Positions 7,520 to 14,891 of a DNA stretch of 64,000 nucleotides are shown here, in pieces (position 1 is the first letter of the stretch; every line of letters begins with the position of its first letter). The notes under the pieces are model-generated. The model was not told where the DNA came from. It saw only the letters and a program-made list of their open reading frames with translations, and ran no database searches. The DNA comes from Amycolatopsis pretoriensis (GTDB lineage Bacteria > Actinomycetota > Actinomycetes > Mycobacteriales > Pseudonocardiaceae): assembly GCF_900107925.1 (NCBI RefSeq), contig NZ_FNUJ01000012.1, positions 1 to 64,000 on the forward strand, written 5' to 3'. The position numbers were made by a program, and so were the translations under genes.

Positions 7520-7553
7520 GCGAAGGCCCGGCGGGGGAATGCCGGGCCTTCGC
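7520..7553 (-). terminator. Hairpin terminator of the SH3b gene
   Basis: Perfect 13-bp arms GCGAAGGCCCGGC and GCCGGGCCTTCGC with an 8-nt loop lie about 60 bp beyond the stop at 7613. Confidence 0.75.
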
Positions 7554-7612: not shown

Positions 7613-8842
7613 TCAGCAGTGGGGCGCGACCGGGAGGTCGGAGCCCGTCTGCAGGTAGGTGTCCGACACGTAGTGGCCGGCGCCGATCCGGTCCCAGATG
7701 GTGCTGGTGCCGAAGGTGCCGGTGACGCTGTCACCCTCGACGTAGCACTCGATGTTGACCCGGGCGTAGTTCGCGGCGAGGCCCTTGATGGCGGCCGAGG
7801 TGCTGGCGCTCGCCCGGACGTTCATCGGGTCGCCGGCGGTCTTCACCAGGCCGGTCGGGCCGGAGCCGGTCCACAGGTAGCTGACGTTGACGTTCCCGTT
7901 GTCGGACATGCCGAGGCCGTCCCAGAAGACGCCGTCGGCGAGGTCGATGCCGGCCGGGTTGCCGACCTTGTAGCCGAGGTCGTCCTTACCGCCGTTGTAG
8001 CCGTTGTGGTAGGCCGCGTACGCCTCGGGCGTGCCCTGCGGGAGGTCCTTGTACTCGTAGCGCACCGAAGCCGGGTTCCAGTAGTCGTCCTTGGTGTTCC
8101 ACGGGCCGACGTCCCACACCGGGGCGTACTCGCAGCGGCTGTTGTCGGTCTTGCAGACGCGGACGCTGTAGTCGCCGGTGCCCTTGGGGGCCAGGCCCCG
8201 CCCGGACGGCAGCGCGACGAAGTGGTCGCGGCTGGTGATGATGTGGCCGTTGGCGGTCTTGCCGCCGATCAGGCCTTCGCGGGTGCCGTAGACCTTGTAG
8301 GTCAGCGCGGTGGCCGCGGCGAGCGCGTTGACTTGCGGGGCAGTGTCGGCGCTCAGGGCGAGACCCCGGACGGCCGGGCGGAGGCCGTCGGTGTCGCTGT
8401 GCAGGCTGATCCGCGCTTGAACGGAGCTGACGGCGGTCTTGAACGCGGTGCCGGCGGGCGTCCACTCGGTCCAGGCGTTCACGCCGGTGCGGCCGCGCAC
8501 CTCGACGTCGACGGTGGTGCCCTTGGGGGCGTCGGCGGAGAGCTGTGCGCTGACGCGGTTCGCCGCGGCGCCGAGGGTGTGTTCGGCGGTGACGAAGCTG
8601 CCTTCACTGCCGGCGAAGACCTGCGCGGTTCTGTGCCACGCGGCGTCGGCCAGGGTCAGGGTTCCGTTCGCGGCGCTCACGTTGACGTCGTCGTAGTCCA
8701 CAGTGGACACGTTTTCCTGCCAGGTGGCAGTGGCGGTGGTCGCGGTGGTGGCGGCCTGGGCGGGGGCTCCGGCCAGCGCCGTCACCGCCCCGGCGGCCAG
8801 GACCGCCGCGGTCACGCGGCCGGCCTTCATGATCCGGATCAT
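7613..8842 (-). CDS. Secreted protein with C-terminal SH3b domain
   Basis: 409 residues with a clear signal peptide (VTAAVLAAGAVTALAGAPAQA). The first ~150 mature residues are a beta-rich module (FVTAEHTLGAAANRVSAQL, VDVEVRGRTG). Residues about 175-320 contain VWDVGPWNTKDDYWNP and ITSRDHFVALPSG, resembling secreted hydrolase-like proteins of streptomycetes, but I cannot name a catalytic activity. The last ~70 residues are a bacterial SH3 domain (KTAGDPMNVRASAS to SDTYLQTGSDLPVAPHC), closely similar to the protein at 11980. SH3b domains usually bind cell-wall peptides. The ATG at 8842 follows GAGGAG. The promoter carries the same 11-bp heptamer pair as the other SH3b gene, with the SARP gene between them. 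Confidence 0.8.
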   Translation of the reverse strand: MIRIMKAGRVTAAVLAAGAVTALAGAPAQAATTATTATATWQENVSTVDYDDVNVSAANGTLTLADAAWHRTAQVFAGSEGSFVTAEHTLGAAANRVSAQLSADAPKGTTVDVEVRGRTGVNAWTEWTPAGTAFKTAVSSVQARISLHSDTDGLRPAVRGLALSADTAPQVNALAAATALTYKVYGTREGLIGGKTANGHIITSRDHFVALPSGRGLAPKGTGDYSVRVCKTDNSRCEYAPVWDVGPWNTKDDYWNPASVRYEYKDLPQGTPEAYAAYHNGYNGGKDDLGYKVGNPAGIDLADGVFWDGLGMSDNGNVNVSYLWTGSGPTGLVKTAGDPMNVRASASTSAAIKGLAANYARVNIECYVEGDSVTGTFGTSTIWDRIGAGHYVSDTYLQTGSDLPVAPHC

Positions 8843-8898
8843 CCCCGGTTCTCCTCTCGCACTCGTTCACTCGAACGTGGCGAAAGGTTGGCCGGGCG

Positions 8899-8916
8899 GC
8901 GTACATGATCCGTACA
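8899..8916 (-). promoter_or_regulatory. SARP-type direct repeat
   Basis: On the minus strand the heptamers TGTACGG and TGTACGC repeat at 11 bp. An 8-bp gap then leads to CAACCT (8890-8885) in the -10 position. SARP activators bind heptamer direct repeats with 11-bp spacing, 8 bp before the -10. A near copy stands before the SH3b gene at 11980. Confidence 0.65.
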
Positions 8917-8929
8917 AGCGGGAGGTGCG

Positions 8930-11869
8930 TCAGGCCGAAACGATGTGCGGCGACTCCGCCACCGAGCCCGACCCCACGGCCTCCGGCGGCCGAGACGACA
9001 GCTCCCGCCAAATCGCCAAAGCCCGCTCCGAATAGTCCCGAGATCGCTCGGGCTGCGAAAGCGCCCGGTGCAACTCACCGAGCAACTGCGAAACCTCGGC
9101 CTCCGACCGCCGGTCCCCGTTGCGCCGGTGCACGGACAACGAGTTCACCAGCAGCAGCTGCGCGTGCGCGAAGTCCCCGCTGTGGAGGCACAGCTCGCCG
9201 AGGTTCTGGTTGGCGTACCCCACGCAATGGTCGTCACCCAGGTCGGTGAAGATCGCGATCGCCTGGTCGACGTGCTCGCGGGCGGCCGCCAGGTTGCCCT
9301 GGTGCTGGAACAGCAGCCCCAGCCTCTTGTACGCGTGGGCTTCGCGGTGGCGGTCGCCGATCGCCGCCGACAGCTCCAGGGCGTCCGTGAACCAGCGCTT
9401 CGCCGCCGCGTAGCAGCCTCGCGACATCCAGACCGCGCCCGCGCCCAGTCTCGCCACCGCTTCGCCGTTCGGGTCGCCTTCCTCCGCGAACAGCTTCAGT
9501 GCCTCGTGGCAGTGGTCCAGCGCCAAGCCGTCTTCGCCGTCGATGCGCAGGATCGTCGCGAGTCCCGTCAACGCGATCGCCACGCCCTGGGCGTCGCCGA
9601 TCCGCTCGAACAGTGCCTTCGACTCCGCGAACGCCACCCGCGAACCGGCGTACTCGTCCTGGTAGAGCAAGTACTGCCCGAGGTTGCGCTGCACGATCGC
9701 CTCCGCGCGCAGTGAACCCGTCCGGCGGGCCGCCTCCAGCGCGATCGTGTGCGTGCTGTGCCAGTCGTCCTGGTGGCCGCGCAGGTCGAAGTACGGCGTC
9801 AACGCCGACGCCAGTTGCCACGCGAGGTCGTCGAAACCGTGCGAAGCGGCCAGCGAAACCGCCGCGACACTCGTGTGCCGCTCCGCCGCGAACCACTCCG
9901 CCGCGTCGTCCGGCAGCACGTCCGCCGGCACCTCCGGCCGCGGCAGCTCGTCGTCGCAGTACATGCCGAAGAAGTGCAACGGCATCCGCCGCGCGGCCTC
10001 CAAAGCCAGCGCCAAGTACTTGGTCAGTACCCGCCGAAGTGCCGCACGCGTCTTCGCCGCGTCACTCTGCTCAGCCAGCTCCACGGCGTACACGCGCAGC
10101 AAGTCGTGCAGCCGGTACCGCGGCTGCCCGGCCGAATCCGAGCCGACGAGCTCGACGAGGTGGCCGTCGACCAGCACGTCCAGAACGTCGTCGGCCTCCC
10201 GGCGGCCCAGCACCGCCGCGACCGCCCACGCCGGGAACTGGACCGGCCCCAGCAGGCCCAGCCCGCGGAACGCCGTCGCCGCCGACATCGGCAGCAGGTC
10301 GTACGACAGTGTCACGCTCGCGCGGACGGCCAGGTCGCCGACGCGCAGCTCGTCGAGCCGCCGGTGCTCGTCGCGCAGGCGGTCGGCCAGCAGCCGCAGC
10401 GTCCAGCCCGGCCGGTGCGTCAGCTTGGCGCCGGCCACCCGGATCGCCAGCGGCAGGTGCCCGCACTGGCGCAGGATCGCCGCCGCGCTCTCGGGTTCGG
10501 CGGCCACGCGCTCGGCGCCGACGATGCCCTCCAGCAGCCGGGCACCCTCGTCCTCGGGCAGCAGGTCGACGTCGACCGGCTTCGCCCCGGCGAGCCCGGG
10601 CAGCCGGATCCGGCTGGTCACCAGCACCGCGCACGCCCCGGCGCCCGGCAGCAGCGGACGCACCTGGGCGGCGCTGCCGGCGTCGTCGAGCACGATGCAC
10701 ATCCGCCGCCCGGCCAGCCGCGACCGCAGCAGCGCCGAGCGTTCCGCCGGTTCGCGCGGCAGGCCCGCGTCCGGGATGCCCAGCGCGCGCAGCAGTTCGG
10801 CGAGCACGCCCATCGGCGCCCGCGGCGACGACGACGTGCCGGCCAGGTCGACGTGCAGCTGCCCGTCGGGGAAGTCGTCGCGGACCGCGTGCGCGACCCG
10901 GACCGCGACCGCCGACTTCCCGACGCCGGGGGCGCCGGAGAGCACGACGACGGCGGGCGTGCCCGAGTCCGCGCGCTCGCGCAGCAGGCCGACGACCTCG
11001 CGGAGCACGTCGTCGCGGCCGGTGAAGTCGGGCAGGTCCAGCGGCAGCTGGCAGACCGGGACGAACTCCGCCGCGCGCACGGCGGGTGCGGTTTCGGAGA
11101 CCAGGGTCGCGCGCAGTTCGCGCAGCCGCGCGCCGGGTTCGGCGGCGAGCTCGTCGCGCAGGACGCGCTCGGCGGATTCGTAGGCCTCGACGGCGTCCGC
11201 GGTCCGCCCGGCCGCGCGCAACGCGACGATCAGTTGCGCCCACAGTTCTTCGCGCAGCGGGTGTTCGGTGACCAGTCCGCGCAGCTCGGCGACGGCCTCG
11301 CCGCTGCGGCCGAGGTCGATCCGCGCGCGCAGGCGTTGTTCCTGGACGGACAGGCGGAGTTCGGTGAGCCGGGCGACGGTCGCGCCCCAGCTGTGGTCGT
11401 GCGGCAGTCCTTCGAGGACTTCGCCGCGCCACAGCGCGTCGGCCCGGTCGAGGAATCCGAGAGCGCTCTCGGTGTCGGCGCGGTCGAGCGCTTCCCGGGC
11501 TTCGCCCGCCAAGGCCGTGAAGGCGAGGTGGTCCAGTTCCTCCGGCGACGCGGTCAGCAGGTAGCCGGAGGCCCGGCTGCTGATCCGTTCGCCCAGGTCG
11601 GGGTCGATCTCGGCGAACCGTCTTCGCAGGGAGTGGACGTACGTGCGGATGTTCGCCGCGGCCGACCGCGGCGCCGATTCCGGCCACAGCACCTCGACCA
11701 GCACGTCGGCGGACACGACGACGTTCGGCTGCAGCGCCAGCGCGGCCAGCAGCAGCCGGGGCTTCGGCCCGCCGAGCGGGATCACCCGCCCGGAAGCGGT
11801 GACCTCCAGCGGTCCGAGGACGCGGATGGTAAACGAGGTGGCCTCAACCTGCCCGATGAGTTCCCCCAT
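8930..11869 (-). CDS. AfsR-like SARP regulator with NB-ARC and TPR domains
   Basis: 979 residues. Residues about 13-90 form the OmpR-type winged-helix domain (VLGPLEVTASGRVIPLGG, then ANIRTYVHSLRRRF). Residues about 98-245 form the bacterial transcriptional activation domain (LRARIDLGRSGEAVAELRGL). Residues about 275-600 form the NB-ARC ATPase with P-loop GAPGVGKS near residue 312 and a Walker B-like MCIVLDDAGS. Residues about 700-960 carry tetratricopeptide repeats. This is the full AfsR architecture; the TPR/NTPase part is thought to gate DNA binding. The small secreted-protein genes on both sides, each with a TGTACG direct repeat of SARP geometry, suggest this protein controls them rather than an antibiotic cluster; no biosynthetic genes are present. 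ATG start, divergent from 11980. Confidence 0.92.
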   Translation of the reverse strand: MGELIGQVEATSFTIRVLGPLEVTASGRVIPLGGPKPRLLLAALALQPNVVVSADVLVEVLWPESAPRSAAANIRTYVHSLRRRFAEIDPDLGERISSRASGYLLTASPEELDHLAFTALAGEAREALDRADTESALGFLDRADALWRGEVLEGLPHDHSWGATVARLTELRLSVQEQRLRARIDLGRSGEAVAELRGLVTEHPLREELWAQLIVALRAAGRTADAVEAYESAERVLRDELAAEPGARLRELRATLVSETAPAVRAAEFVPVCQLPLDLPDFTGRDDVLREVVGLLRERADSGTPAVVVLSGAPGVGKSAVAVRVAHAVRDDFPDGQLHVDLAGTSSSPRAPMGVLAELLRALGIPDAGLPREPAERSALLRSRLAGRRMCIVLDDAGSAAQVRPLLPGAGACAVLVTSRIRLPGLAGAKPVDVDLLPEDEGARLLEGIVGAERVAAEPESAAAILRQCGHLPLAIRVAGAKLTHRPGWTLRLLADRLRDEHRRLDELRVGDLAVRASVTLSYDLLPMSAATAFRGLGLLGPVQFPAWAVAAVLGRREADDVLDVLVDGHLVELVGSDSAGQPRYRLHDLLRVYAVELAEQSDAAKTRAALRRVLTKYLALALEAARRMPLHFFGMYCDDELPRPEVPADVLPDDAAEWFAAERHTSVAAVSLAASHGFDDLAWQLASALTPYFDLRGHQDDWHSTHTIALEAARRTGSLRAEAIVQRNLGQYLLYQDEYAGSRVAFAESKALFERIGDAQGVAIALTGLATILRIDGEDGLALDHCHEALKLFAEEGDPNGEAVARLGAGAVWMSRGCYAAAKRWFTDALELSAAIGDRHREAHAYKRLGLLFQHQGNLAAAREHVDQAIAIFTDLGDDHCVGYANQNLGELCLHSGDFAHAQLLLVNSLSVHRRNGDRRSEAEVSQLLGELHRALSQPERSRDYSERALAIWRELSSRPPEAVGSGSVAESPHIVSA

Positions 11870-11941
11870 AACCGGATGCTATGGCCCGATCGCCGGCCGG
11901 GCTAGATCCATTCGGAGTGTCTGCGCACGCCGCGGGCGCTT

Positions 11942-11959
11942 TGTACGAGTCGTGTACGA
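11942..11959 (+). promoter_or_regulatory. SARP-type direct repeat
   Basis: TGTACGA repeats at exactly 11 bp (11942-11948 and 11953-11959). An 8-bp gap leads to CACGCT (11968-11973), a -10-like hexamer 6 nt before the ATG at 11980. This would imply a leaderless or nearly leaderless mRNA. The site lies in the divergent space shared with the SARP gene and could also serve autoregulation. Confidence 0.65.
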
Positions 11960-11979
11960 GCCCCGGTCACGCTCCCGCC

Positions 11980-12636
11980 ATGAAGCGTTCGAACCTCCGG
12001 CGTTTGGCCGGCTCAGTGGTCGTGCTCGCGACGGTCGGCGCGCTCGCGGTGGGCGGCGCGCTCGAAGCGTCGGCGGCCGCGACCGGCACCGTCAAGACCG
12101 CGGGCGACCCCCTCAACGTCCGCCGGGCGCCCACCGCGAGCGCCACGGCCGTCAAGACCGTCGCCAATGGCGCGTCAGTGACCATCGACTGTCAGATCAG
12201 TGGTTCTTCAGTGACCGGGACCTACGGCACGAGCACGTTGTGGGACTACGTGCCGGCACTCGGCGGGTACATCTCGGACACCTACGTCTACACCGGTTCC
12301 GACCTGCGGATCGCGCCCGACTGCGGGGTCGGCTCGGGTAGCGGTCAGTGCGCCGGCAGTTGCGCGGGGGAGGGGCAGTACCGCTCGTCCGACTCGCACT
12401 TCCTGGTCTACGACACGAACGCGGACGGCTATTCGGCCGTCGTCGCGTACTGGCTCAAGGGCGGCGCCGGGCCGTTCTACGTCTGGAACTCCGGTGGCGA
12501 GGGCACGAAGGTCGACAAGGCCGTGAGCGTCCCGCACGGCGGCTGGGTCTTCTACAAGGTCTGCGTCGCCAACTACACGACGGGCAAGCCCGACCTCAAG
12601 TCCTGCAGCGACGGGCTCACCGACTTCGCGGCCTGA
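11980..12636 (+). CDS. Small secreted SH3b-domain protein
   Basis: 218 residues with a signal peptide (LAGSVVVLATVGALAVGGALEASA). Residues about 40-115 are a bacterial SH3 domain (VKTAGDPLNVRRAPTASATA to YVYTGSDLRIAPDC) with two cysteines that could form a disulfide. Residues about 115-218 are a second beta-rich domain with cysteine pairs (GQCAGSCAGEGQYRSSDSHF, KVCVANYTTGKPDLKSCSD) that I do not recognise. The protein probably acts at the cell wall. It is a paralogue, over the SH3 domain, of the protein at 7613-8842. The ATG at 11980 lies immediately before the signal peptide. PhoD follows after 32 bp and may be co-transcribed. Confidence 0.8.
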   Translation: MKRSNLRRLAGSVVVLATVGALAVGGALEASAAATGTVKTAGDPLNVRRAPTASATAVKTVANGASVTIDCQISGSSVTGTYGTSTLWDYVPALGGYISDTYVYTGSDLRIAPDCGVGSGSGQCAGSCAGEGQYRSSDSHFLVYDTNADGYSAVVAYWLKGGAGPFYVWNSGGEGTKVDKAVSVPHGGWVFYKVCVANYTTGKPDLKSCSDGLTDFAA

Positions 12637-12668: not shown

Positions 12669-14240
12669 ATGGTTGACCTCACCCGGCGCAAGGTGCTGCT
12701 CGGCGGGCTCGCCGCGGTCACCGCCACCGCGGCGTCGGCCGCGCTGCCGTCCTGGGCGAACGCCCGCACCGCCGCGGCCGCCCCCACGATCCACGACCCC
12801 TTCCAGCTCGGCGTCGCCTCCGGCGATCCGCTCCCCGACAGCGTGGTGCTGTGGACGAGACTCGCCCCGGCGCCGCTCAACCCGGACGGCTTCGGCGGCA
12901 TGCCGGACGCCACGTACGCGGTCGACTGGGAGATCGCGAACGACGAGGCGTTCACCTCGATCGTGCAGAGTGGCCAGGCGAGCGCGGTCCGCGCGGCCGC
13001 GCACAGTGTCCACATCGAACCCGCGGGCTTGCAGCCCGCGCGGGAGTACTTCTACCGCTTCAAGACCGGCGGCTACATCTCGCCGGTCGGCCGGACGCGC
13101 ACCGCGCCCGCCGCCGGGGCCGCGGTCAACCAGCTCAAGTACTGCTTCAGTTCCTGCCAGCACTGGGAGGAGGGCTACTACCACGCGTACAAGGGCATCG
13201 TGGCCGACGACCCGGACCTGGTGCTGTTCCTCGGCGACTACATCTACGAGAAGAAGTCGGGCCGTGCCGCCGCGGAACGCAACCCGCGCAGCCTCGCGTT
13301 CACCGAGGACGTGACGACGCTCGCGCAGTACCGCGCCCGCCACGCCCAGCACAAGACCGACGCCGACCTGCAGGCCGCGCACGCGATCGCGCCGTGGATC
13401 GTGGTGTTCGACGACCACGAAGTGATGAACAACTGGAACGGCACCACTTCGCCGGCCACGGCCGCGCGCAAGGCGGCCGGGTTCCAGGCCTTCTACGAGA
13501 ACACCCCGATCCGCTCGACGGCCAAGCCGAACGGCTCGTCGATCCAGCTGTACCGCCAGTTCGTCTGGGGCAACCTGGCCCGCTTCCACATGCTCGACAC
13601 GCGCCAGTACCGCAGCGCCCAGGTCGCCGACCCGTCCGGTTCGGCCGGTCCCGCCTGCACGGACATGCGCAGCACCTCGCGCAGCATCCTCGGCAGCACC
13701 GAAGAAGCCTGGCTGCTCAAGCAGTTCGAATCGCACCCGACGACGTGGGACTTCCTCGGCCAGCAGGTCTTCTTCGCCACGCGGGACGGCGACGGCAACA
13801 AGGCCACCTGCGAAAGCCCTGACTCCTGGCAGGGCTACGAGGCTTCCCGGAACCGGATCCAGCAGGGCTGGGTCGACCGCAAGGTCGCCAACCCGGTCGT
13901 GCTCACCGGCGACGTCCACCGGCACTGGGCGGCCGACCTGCGGCTGGACTACTTCGACCACAGCGACCCCGTCATCGGCTCCGAGCTGGTCACGACGTCG
14001 GTGACGAGCAACAGCGACACCGCGACCGCGCCGAGCTCGACCTGGTACGCGAACAACCCGCACGTCAAGTACTGCAAGGGCGAGCGCGGCTACGTCCGCG
14101 TCACGACGACGCCGGCGCAGACGCGGGCGGACTTCATGACGACGTCGGACACCAGCGTCTACGACCCGGCGTCGGTGGTGATCAAGAACGACCGCAGCTA
14201 CGTAGTGCAAGCGGGCAAGCCCGGACTCCAGCAGGTCTGA
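12669..14240 (+). CDS. phoD: PhoD-family alkaline phosphatase/phosphodiesterase
   Basis: 523 residues with a twin-arginine signal (LTRRKVLLGGLAA) ending near ALPSWANA. Residues about 45-140 form the Ig-like PhoD N-terminal domain (FQLGVASGDPLPDSVVLWTR). The metallophosphatase core follows with its metal-binding motifs: FSSCQHWEEGYYHAY, LFLGDYIYE, FDDHEVMNNW and LTGDVHRHW. PhoD enzymes are Ca/Fe-dependent, secreted through Tat, and release phosphate from phosphodiesters such as teichoic acids. It follows the SH3b gene by 32 bp, so it probably shares the SARP-type promoter; no canonical PHO box was seen in front of it. A TetR gene starts 24 bp downstream. Confidence 0.93.
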   Translation: MVDLTRRKVLLGGLAAVTATAASAALPSWANARTAAAAPTIHDPFQLGVASGDPLPDSVVLWTRLAPAPLNPDGFGGMPDATYAVDWEIANDEAFTSIVQSGQASAVRAAAHSVHIEPAGLQPAREYFYRFKTGGYISPVGRTRTAPAAGAAVNQLKYCFSSCQHWEEGYYHAYKGIVADDPDLVLFLGDYIYEKKSGRAAAERNPRSLAFTEDVTTLAQYRARHAQHKTDADLQAAHAIAPWIVVFDDHEVMNNWNGTTSPATAARKAAGFQAFYENTPIRSTAKPNGSSIQLYRQFVWGNLARFHMLDTRQYRSAQVADPSGSAGPACTDMRSTSRSILGSTEEAWLLKQFESHPTTWDFLGQQVFFATRDGDGNKATCESPDSWQGYEASRNRIQQGWVDRKVANPVVLTGDVHRHWAADLRLDYFDHSDPVIGSELVTTSVTSNSDTATAPSSTWYANNPHVKYCKGERGYVRVTTTPAQTRADFMTTSDTSVYDPASVVIKNDRSYVVQAGKPGLQQV

Positions 14241-14264: not shown

Positions 14265-14891
14265 GTGACCGAAGAACTGGGCCTGCGGGAGCGCAAGAAG
14301 CTCCGCACACGGGCGGCGATCTCGGCGGCGGCGATCGGGCTCTTCCTCGAGCGCGGGTTCGACGCCGTCGGGGTCGCCGAGGTGGCGCGGGTGGCCGAGG
14401 TGTCCAAGCGGACCCTCTTCGCCTACTTCCCGTCCAAGGAGGACCTGGTGCTGCACCGGTTCGCCGACCACGAGACCGACGCGGCGGACGTCGTCCGCGC
14501 GCGCCGGCCGGGGCAGGGCGCGCTGTCGGCCCTGCGGGAGGCGTTCCTGCGAGGGCTCGAAGAGCGTTCGCCGGTCACGGGCCTCTGCGACGAGCCCGCG
14601 GTGCTCGCGGTGTTCCGGCTGGTCACCGGCACGCCGGCGCTGGTGGCGCGGCTGGCGGCGTTCACCTCCGCGGGGGAGGCGGCGCTGGCCGCCGCGCTCG
14701 CCGGCGCCGACGTCCCGCCGCTCGATTCCACGCTCGCCGCGGCGCAGATCGCGGCGGTCCGCCGGACCCTCGCGACGGCCAACATGGACGCGGTCGCCGC
14801 CGGGGTCCCCGCGGCCCGGCGGCACCCGGAGGCCGTCGAGGCGGCCGAACGGGCGTTCCACCTGCTGACGTCCGGGCTAGGGTTCGCCTGA
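14265..14891 (+). CDS. TetR-family transcriptional regulator
   Basis: 208 residues from a GTG 24 bp after phoD. The N-terminal helix-turn-helix (AIGLFLERGFDAVGVAEVAR, VSKRTLFAYFPSKEDLVL) is typical TetR/AcrR. The C-terminal helical domain would bind a ligand and dimerise. The tight spacing suggests co-transcription with phoD. A perfect 18-bp palindrome lies 21 bp after its stop and could be an operator for it or for another regulator. The ligand and targets are unknown. Confidence 0.88.
   Translation: MTEELGLRERKKLRTRAAISAAAIGLFLERGFDAVGVAEVARVAEVSKRTLFAYFPSKEDLVLHRFADHETDAADVVRARRPGQGALSALREAFLRGLEERSPVTGLCDEPAVLAVFRLVTGTPALVARLAAFTSAGEAALAAALAGADVPPLDSTLAAAQIAAVRRTLATANMDAVAAGVPAARRHPEAVEAAERAFHLLTSGLGFA

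Follow-up and report, generated by a model that had tools for sequence, protein, structure and literature searches.

A stretch of 64,000 nucleotides from Amycolatopsis pretoriensis (contig NZ_FNUJ01000012.1, positions 1 to 64,000; hereafter the window) contains a gene coding for a large AfsR-like member of the SARP (Streptomyces antibiotic regulatory protein) family, located between two genes that encode secreted proteins with SH3b-like domains. The SARP gene (8930..11869, minus strand) encodes a protein of 979 aa with winged helix, BTAD, NB-ARC ATPase and TPR regions, which is the proposed regulator of both neighbours. Downstream of it lies SH3b-A (7613..8842, minus strand), coding for a secreted protein of 409 aa with a C-terminal SH3-like cell-wall-binding domain, and divergently from it SH3b-B (11980..12636, plus strand), whose secreted product of 218 aa presents an SH3b-like domain and, according to a crude rule, a signal-like N-terminus. 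SARPs are usually credited with antibiotic switching. An original prediction, made from the window alone, had proposed that this SARP controls a regulon of cell-wall and secreted proteins, rather than an antibiotic cluster, through repeats upstream of the two SH3b genes. The comparative evidence presented here, encompassing sites across the genus, their secreted targets and their co-occurrence with the SARP, strongly supports this proposal.

The SARP locus and its two operators

The operator of SH3b-A (8899..8916, minus strand) maps between the SARP stop codon and SH3b-A and comprises TGTACGG (8916-8910), ATCA and TGTACGC (8905-8899), with an 11-bp period. A gap of 8 bp (8898-8891) separates it from a predicted -10 element, CAACCT (8885..8890, minus strand), located 42 nt from the ATG at 8842, and a Shine-Dalgarno-like AGGAG can be read ahead of this start codon. 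The operator of SH3b-B (11942..11959, plus strand) presents the same period, with TGTACGA (11942-11948), GTCG and TGTACGA (11953-11959) followed by an 8-bp gap (11960-11967) and the predicted -10 element CACGCT (11968..11973, plus strand). The ATG of SH3b-B at 11980 lies only 6 nt past this element, and its mRNA is hence predicted to be leaderless. Both operators, the 8-bp gap and the C-A-x-x-C-T hexamers had been placed correctly to the base in the original prediction, and they reproduce exactly the SARP geometry described in the available text of PMC10936776, in which direct repeats recur every 11 bp and 8 bp separate the final repeat from a suboptimal -10.

The regulator shows the composition that defines large AfsR-like SARPs. 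An N-terminal OmpR-type winged helix (Trans_reg_C, PF00486) is followed by a BTAD (PF03704) and then by NB-ARC (NOD; PF00931) and TPR (PF13424) regions, all of them scoring above the Pfam cut-offs, and the protein aligns with full-length AfsR over nearly its whole length (E 2e-111). The NCBIfam AfsR model (NF053617) was its best family match, with 541.9 bits against the 1430-bit cut-off set for an AfsR orthologue. In AfsR, the recognition helix contacts bases via T88 and R92, and the NOD and TPR inhibit the protein until ATP relieves the inhibition (PMC10936776, available text). The alignment indicates that R87 and T88 are kept in the window SARP, and that S91 and R92 are replaced by H and S. 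These altered residues fit the change of operator, TTGTACG here versus the afs-type CGTT(T/C)ATCG reported in the available part of PMC10972967. Most orthologues, both within Amycolatopsis and beyond it, retain the recognition-helix string RTYVHxLRR, and a paralogue in this genome with 47% identity reads LQTYVWRLRR at this position.

Neither flanking protein returned a Pfam match at E 0.001, and SH3b-B presented a sub-threshold match to SH3_3. Both match the SH3b part of GsmA, a cell-wall hydrolase involved in sporangiospore maturation, but only over that part and below the GsmA cut-off, and SH3b-A also resembles solved SH3-like cell-wall-binding domains (8b2f, E 4e-7; 8b2g; 8b2s). The SH3b labels are thus reasonable but weak by Pfam, and firmer from the sequence matches to GsmA for both proteins and to the solved domains for SH3b-A. 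Structures predicted from shallow alignments (mean pLDDT of 44 for SH3b-A and 34 for SH3b-B) were not used.

Operator sites and target genes in Amycolatopsis

The search of the 10.3 Mb genome for the repeat at SARP geometry, which the original prediction had suggested, outlined a larger regulon than the one it had proposed. The strict pattern with full geometry returned five matches and a relaxed pattern (TGTAY-N6-TGTAC with the -10 as S-A-N3-T) seven, with no matches for the respective controls, the strict one being a reversed pattern. Six of the seven sites lie directly 5' of genes for secreted proteins. These include SH3b-A, SH3b-B, two SH3b/NlpC-like proteins of 316 and 252 aa (with NlpC/P60 matches below the Pfam cut-off), a sialidase-like protein and a Tat-exported N-acetylmuramoyl-L-alanine (peptidoglycan) amidase. 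The seventh site (L003) precedes a GH6 gene devoid of its start region. A random match within the GH6 gene was considered for this site and rejected, given that this operator is also present in relatives, 6 nt ahead of the start codon of their GH6 genes. In A. pretoriensis (G000:C23:1129154 onwards; L003 1501-1700) the operator and -10 of this cellulase gene are intact and its start and signal-peptide region are missing relative to those relatives, so that the truncated gene is either decayed or the product of an assembly error.

Across 80 Amycolatopsis genomes the strict pattern was identified 289 times, with at least one instance in 69 of them; the reversed control matched in none of these genomes and once in 297 genomes of the family. 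The repeat spacing and -10 distance of SARP promoters are therefore found exactly in the window and in 69 of the 80 genus genomes. We examined 115 of the 289 sites, comprising the five in A. pretoriensis (G000), the site listed first for each of 30 genomes, and a further 80 chosen from the listing without sight of their genes, and scored as a target any gene starting within 80 nt whose product passed a crude signal-peptide rule of our own. By this rule, 109 sites precede a secreted-protein gene, and three more precede Tat proteins in which a twin-arginine start is apparent on reading, for a total of 112 of 115. The rule missed these three Tat proteins and the amidase at L173, and it passed L157, which was discounted. 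At the three remaining sites (L003, L081 and L099), what follows is a remnant of a secreted target or a displaced portion of one.

The targets in the genus map to SH3b/NlpC-like, SH3b-A, sialidase-like, Amidase_2, GH6, five-bladed propeller, right-handed beta-helix and PLD-like families, together with some unnamed ones and a GDPD-like family recognized by reading, without a Pfam match. Pathway-specific antibiotic SARPs are defined by operators at the promoters of biosynthetic clusters; the sites reported here are dispersed and lie before secreted-protein genes, and neither the target clusters read nor the representatives of them that were scanned included a biosynthetic enzyme, the window itself not having been searched for biosynthetic clusters. 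The mean number of sites per genome follows SARP identity, with 5.9 sites at 88-100% identity (n=28), 3.3 at >70 and <80% (n=35) and 0.6 at 59-70% (n=16), a trend that includes the effect of relatedness.

The -10 elements mostly conform to SANNNT, with C or G as their first base in 106 of the 115 sites, which suggests weak promoters in need of an activator. The start codon, always ATG, falls 6-8 nt past the -10 in 60 of the 115, and only four of these 60 present a Shine-Dalgarno-like stretch, as opposed to 43 of the 52 sites with a leader. About half of the examined promoters are hence predicted to yield leaderless mRNAs.

Within the window, TGTACG-N5-TGTACG occurs twice, only at the two operators, and none of 100 shuffled sequences reached two instances (mean 0.01). 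TGTACG alone is over-represented in the window, with 36 instances against 14 expected (2.6 times), so shuffling understates chance and stronger controls were relied upon. In four whole genomes (this one and three chosen among site-rich ones), TGTACG pairs at gaps of 0 to 16 amounted to 102, of which 30 presented a gap of 5, 68 fell in the six gaps that preserve codon phase and only four in the ten other out-of-phase gaps. Of the 30 gap-5 pairs, 29 (5, 7, 7 and 10 per genome) fit the full pattern, in which the second base of the -10 is A and the last is T, and only two of 20 TGTACG pairs at wrong spacings precede a secreted-protein gene by the crude rule.

Two further observations concern individual targets. 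At L081 (G006:C6:8584619, minus strand), the SH3b-B operator and start codon are kept, the rest of SH3b-B and apparently phoD are gone, and a TetR-like gene is left 133 nt downstream of the -10. Sites L022, L118, L123 and L172, with their relatives, precede a target family of approximately 330 aa with a Tat signal, the member at L118 matching Pfam Phage_RBD_prop, the five-bladed propeller of phage receptor-binding platforms.

Association of the operator with the SARP across genomes

The distribution of sites outside Amycolatopsis was compared with that of the SARP, with homologues called at E<=1e-220, in 189 non-genus genomes; the 200 genomes searched for the SARP were taken, from their handles, to be the first of the 297 scanned for sites, in the same order. 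Of the 29 genomes with the SARP, 16 present strict sites, as opposed to two of the 160 without it (P 1.4e-13 by genome, with shared ancestry not removed). Counting by genus, which reduces shared ancestry, the proportions were 6 of 11 versus 1 of 34 (P 3.5e-4). Of the two genomes with a strict site and no SARP call, G188 carries an orthologue split in two, and G249 carries none, with the site of the latter preceding a glycosyltransferase-like frame.

Among the 21 strict non-genus sites, 19 were read (those of G204 and G234 were left out), and 17 by the rule plus one preceding a Tat amidase, by reading, lie before genes for secreted proteins. A strict site adjoins the SARP gene only in G254 and G337, and where the sites of other genera are unlinked to it, the families behind them are those seen in Amycolatopsis (SH3b-B, GH6, amidase, small NlpC/CHAP-like and propeller proteins). 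In genera g31 and g24 (L158, L159 and L177-L179), the operator was also observed before a Tat-type exported protein of approximately 280 aa not seen among the Amycolatopsis targets read, with a sub-threshold peptidoglycan-binding match at L158.

All 11 Amycolatopsis genomes without a strict site encode the SARP, and each presents one to four relaxed sites. An altered recognition helix was considered as the cause of their missing strict sites and rejected, since the helix is kept in all 11 and relaxed sites are present instead. Outside the genus, 13 genomes have a SARP homologue but lack strict sites, and relaxed sites were detected in four of them (G088, G104 and G131, at 62-66% identity, and G107, at 49%). 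An initial test on the 11 Amycolatopsis genomes, six of the 13 and 11 genomes without the SARP yielded 14 of 17 versus 0 of 11 (P 3.4e-5); after addition of the other seven (48-53% identity) and of 12 more SARP-less genomes, the totals became 15 of 24 strict-negative SARP genomes with relaxed sites versus one of 23 SARP-less ones (P 2.8e-5). The single relaxed site in a SARP-less genome (G084) has no gene close behind. Of the 28 relaxed sites identified in SARP genomes by the initial test, 24 precede secreted-protein genes by the crude rule, and both relaxed sites in G107 precede, by reading, SH3b proteins. The association is also apparent within a single genus, in which G131 has the SARP and two flanking relaxed sites and G093 has neither. 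In two genera (L254, G028:C24:309687; L262, G088:C4:640869), the gene behind a relaxed operator downstream of the SARP encodes a small protein rich in cysteine (SWFCCGP...CGNCRS) that lacks a classical signal peptide.

The original prediction had asked whether the three-gene block is conserved in relatives, and this holds for part of the 41 named Amycolatopsis SARP loci that were compared, with operators largely conserved where the genes adjoin the SARP. SH3b-B is divergent from the SARP gene, with phoD behind it, in 24 of the 41 loci, and all 24 present the SH3b-B operator with 0-2 mismatches, versus none of the 17 loci without SH3b-B (the upstream sequence covering only 541, 317 and 218 bases in L047, L054 and L070). 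A relative of SH3b-A is located downstream of the SARP gene in 31 loci. Its operator is exact in 13, including 13 of 13 close-clade loci, has two mismatches in one (L074) and three in ten, and is absent from seven. The ten with three mismatches, encompassing nine of nine orientalis-clade loci and L073, share a degenerate form, TGTATC-N5-TGTACA, with the -10 at the same distance.

A putative SARP regulon of secreted envelope enzymes

Taken together, these comparisons make it very probable that a dispersed set of genes for secreted, mostly envelope-acting proteins is under direct activation by the AfsR-like protein, via a TGTACG repeat placed 8 bp before the -10. The operator, its spacing, the -10 position, the target class, the conservation and the co-occurrence with the SARP can be read directly from sequence, and from them we infer binding, activation, RNA polymerase contacts and leaderless translation. 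The SARP would bind T-TGTACG-N5-TGTACG as a side-by-side dimer, 8 bp upstream of a weak -10, and would recruit the housekeeping RNA polymerase as AfsR does, switching on the peptidoglycan amidase, the SH3b and SH3b/NlpC-like wall proteins, the sialidase-like, GH6, PLD-like and GDPD-like enzymes, and others. By analogy with AfsR, in which the NOD and TPR inhibit and ATP relieves, the NB-ARC/TPR half presumably gates SARP activity by nucleotide state and by a signal at the TPR part. The target families, together with the adjacent phoD, point to an envelope-acting role that includes phosphodiester parts, and the regulon probably breaks down or remodels envelope material, whether that of the producing cell as its wall is rebuilt during development, that of dead cells used as a resource or that of competitors under attack. 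A more speculative extension, which we regard as doubtful in its full form, is that the SARP part serves as the output of a vertically retained sensor of STAND type (NB-ARC/TPR), and that this antibiotic-type activator instead triggers a lytic, largely leaderless secretome upon an external or envelope-derived cue across several Pseudonocardiaceae genera.

Several results weigh against direct activation by this SARP. The original prediction had named as refuting it SH3b promoters that lack the repeats where the SARP is retained, and this was observed in part: at the SH3b-B promoter the operator persists in all loci with that gene beside the SARP, but seven of the 31 SH3b-A loci (L070, plus six from a single clade whose relative is shorter) show no operator up to three mismatches. 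In the same part of the genus, another SH3b-A homologue located elsewhere in G018 and G021 carries a relaxed operator. Nine of the 24 strict-negative SARP genomes also lack relaxed sites (G096, G102, G133 and six of the seven at 48-53% identity, these outside genera g18 and g24), and the more distant SARP homologues may lack the shared operator. Four of the 28 relaxed sites fail the signal-peptide rule, with an IclR-like gene at L256, no gene at L276, and L254 and L262 as described above. G312 presents a site before an amidase and no detected orthologue, in an assembly of about 900 contigs, and the one strict site of G046 (L184) has no close gene. Lastly, the recognition helix does not tell genomes with many strict sites from those with few or none.

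Among alternative explanations, the strongest holds that the operator and regulon are real but that another SARP or an OmpR-type protein binds, with the neighbouring SARP as a bystander or a mere target. Genus genomes do hold further SARP-like genes, with homologues at 37-51% identity beside the orthologue, and the SH3b-B operator lies between SH3b-B and the SARP gene and could act on both. We nonetheless consider this explanation unlikely, because the sites co-occur with this particular SARP across genera and also within one genus, the best paralogue in this genome has a different recognition helix, and some site-rich genomes, such as G006 and G008, yielded no second homologue (at E<=1e-150, with ten candidates per genome; other OmpR-type proteins were not surveyed). 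It is less likely still that the SARP binds but represses, or that it acts on its two neighbours only and the distant sites are relics. The direction of regulation is not readable from sequence, and some targets have decayed behind a kept operator (L003, L081 and L099). Yet a spacing of 8 bp to a poor -10 characterizes SARP activators (PMC10936776, available text), almost every distant site that was read has an intact gene behind it, and only 3 of the 115 operators stand before a decayed target. An origin in chance or coding sequence, for which the frequency of TGTACG in coding sequence and the 68 pairs at codon-phase spacings might speak, is ruled out for practical purposes by the excess at gap 5, which is out of codon phase, by the placement of A and T in the -10, by the secreted targets (112 of 115, versus two of 20 controls by the rule) and by the conservation of sites between genes across species.

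Activation of such a regulon by the AfsR-like SARP would set it apart from the systems it most resembles. AfsR of Streptomyces coelicolor (PDB 8hvr, 8jke and 8k60) shares its domain order with NOD and TPR, a near full-length alignment and 11-bp repeats 8 bp from the -10, but it targets afsS or antibiotic control, whereas the sites of the window SARP mark dispersed secreted proteins. Pathway-specific SARPs and SARP-LALs (PimR, SanG, PolR and others) likewise use heptameric direct repeats with short spacers, several of them overlapping the -35 region (PMC10972967, available part), but activate biosynthetic gene clusters. EmbR of mycobacteria (PDB 2fez and 2ff4), a SARP family member without ties to antibiotics that has been connected to cell-wall structure and to secretion operons (PMC9239209, available text), has related DNA-binding and BTAD domains (E 3e-31); it differs in presenting an FHA domain in place of NB-ARC/TPR, and the available text describes no operator-defined set of secreted enzymes for it. 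The titles and abstract openings covered, with most subscription papers outside reach, returned no description of a SARP regulon of secreted enzymes or of a TGTACG operator, and the available part of a 2024 SARP review is devoted to secondary metabolism (PMC10972967). If borne out, a conserved large SARP marking secreted envelope enzymes genome-wide would widen the role of the SARP family, and many unnamed secreted proteins would gain a shared context, with the operator predicting further targets. The named promoters could serve as reporters in inducer screening, making sensing by NB-ARC/TPR SARPs testable, and the predicted leaderless class can be tested via transcript ends.

Two genes following SH3b-B may belong to the same transcript. 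A PhoD-type alkaline phosphatase gene (12669..14240, plus strand) begins 32 nt after SH3b-B without an operator of its own, and a TetR-type regulator gene (14265..14891, plus strand) follows 24 nt after phoD; a TetR-type gene occupies the same place in nine of 13 close-clade loci. The original prediction had included both genes by read-through, which the short gaps and the absence of a terminator-like site between them render plausible, without establishing it. On the other side of the locus, just 3' of SH3b-A (7520-7553, minus strand), the window contains a strong terminator-like hairpin of 13 pairs, although such sites were no commoner across the scan than in shuffled sequences. Upstream of the SARP gene (11870-11925 in the window, minus strand, and several of the loci L063-L076), we observed a recurring stretch resembling GAATGGATCTAGC, followed 20-25 bp on by TAGCAT or TACGAT close to the start codon. 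Such a stretch can also be read upstream of SARP genes without an adjoining SH3b gene, and its sequence suggests a possible promoter and entry point for upstream control of the SARP.

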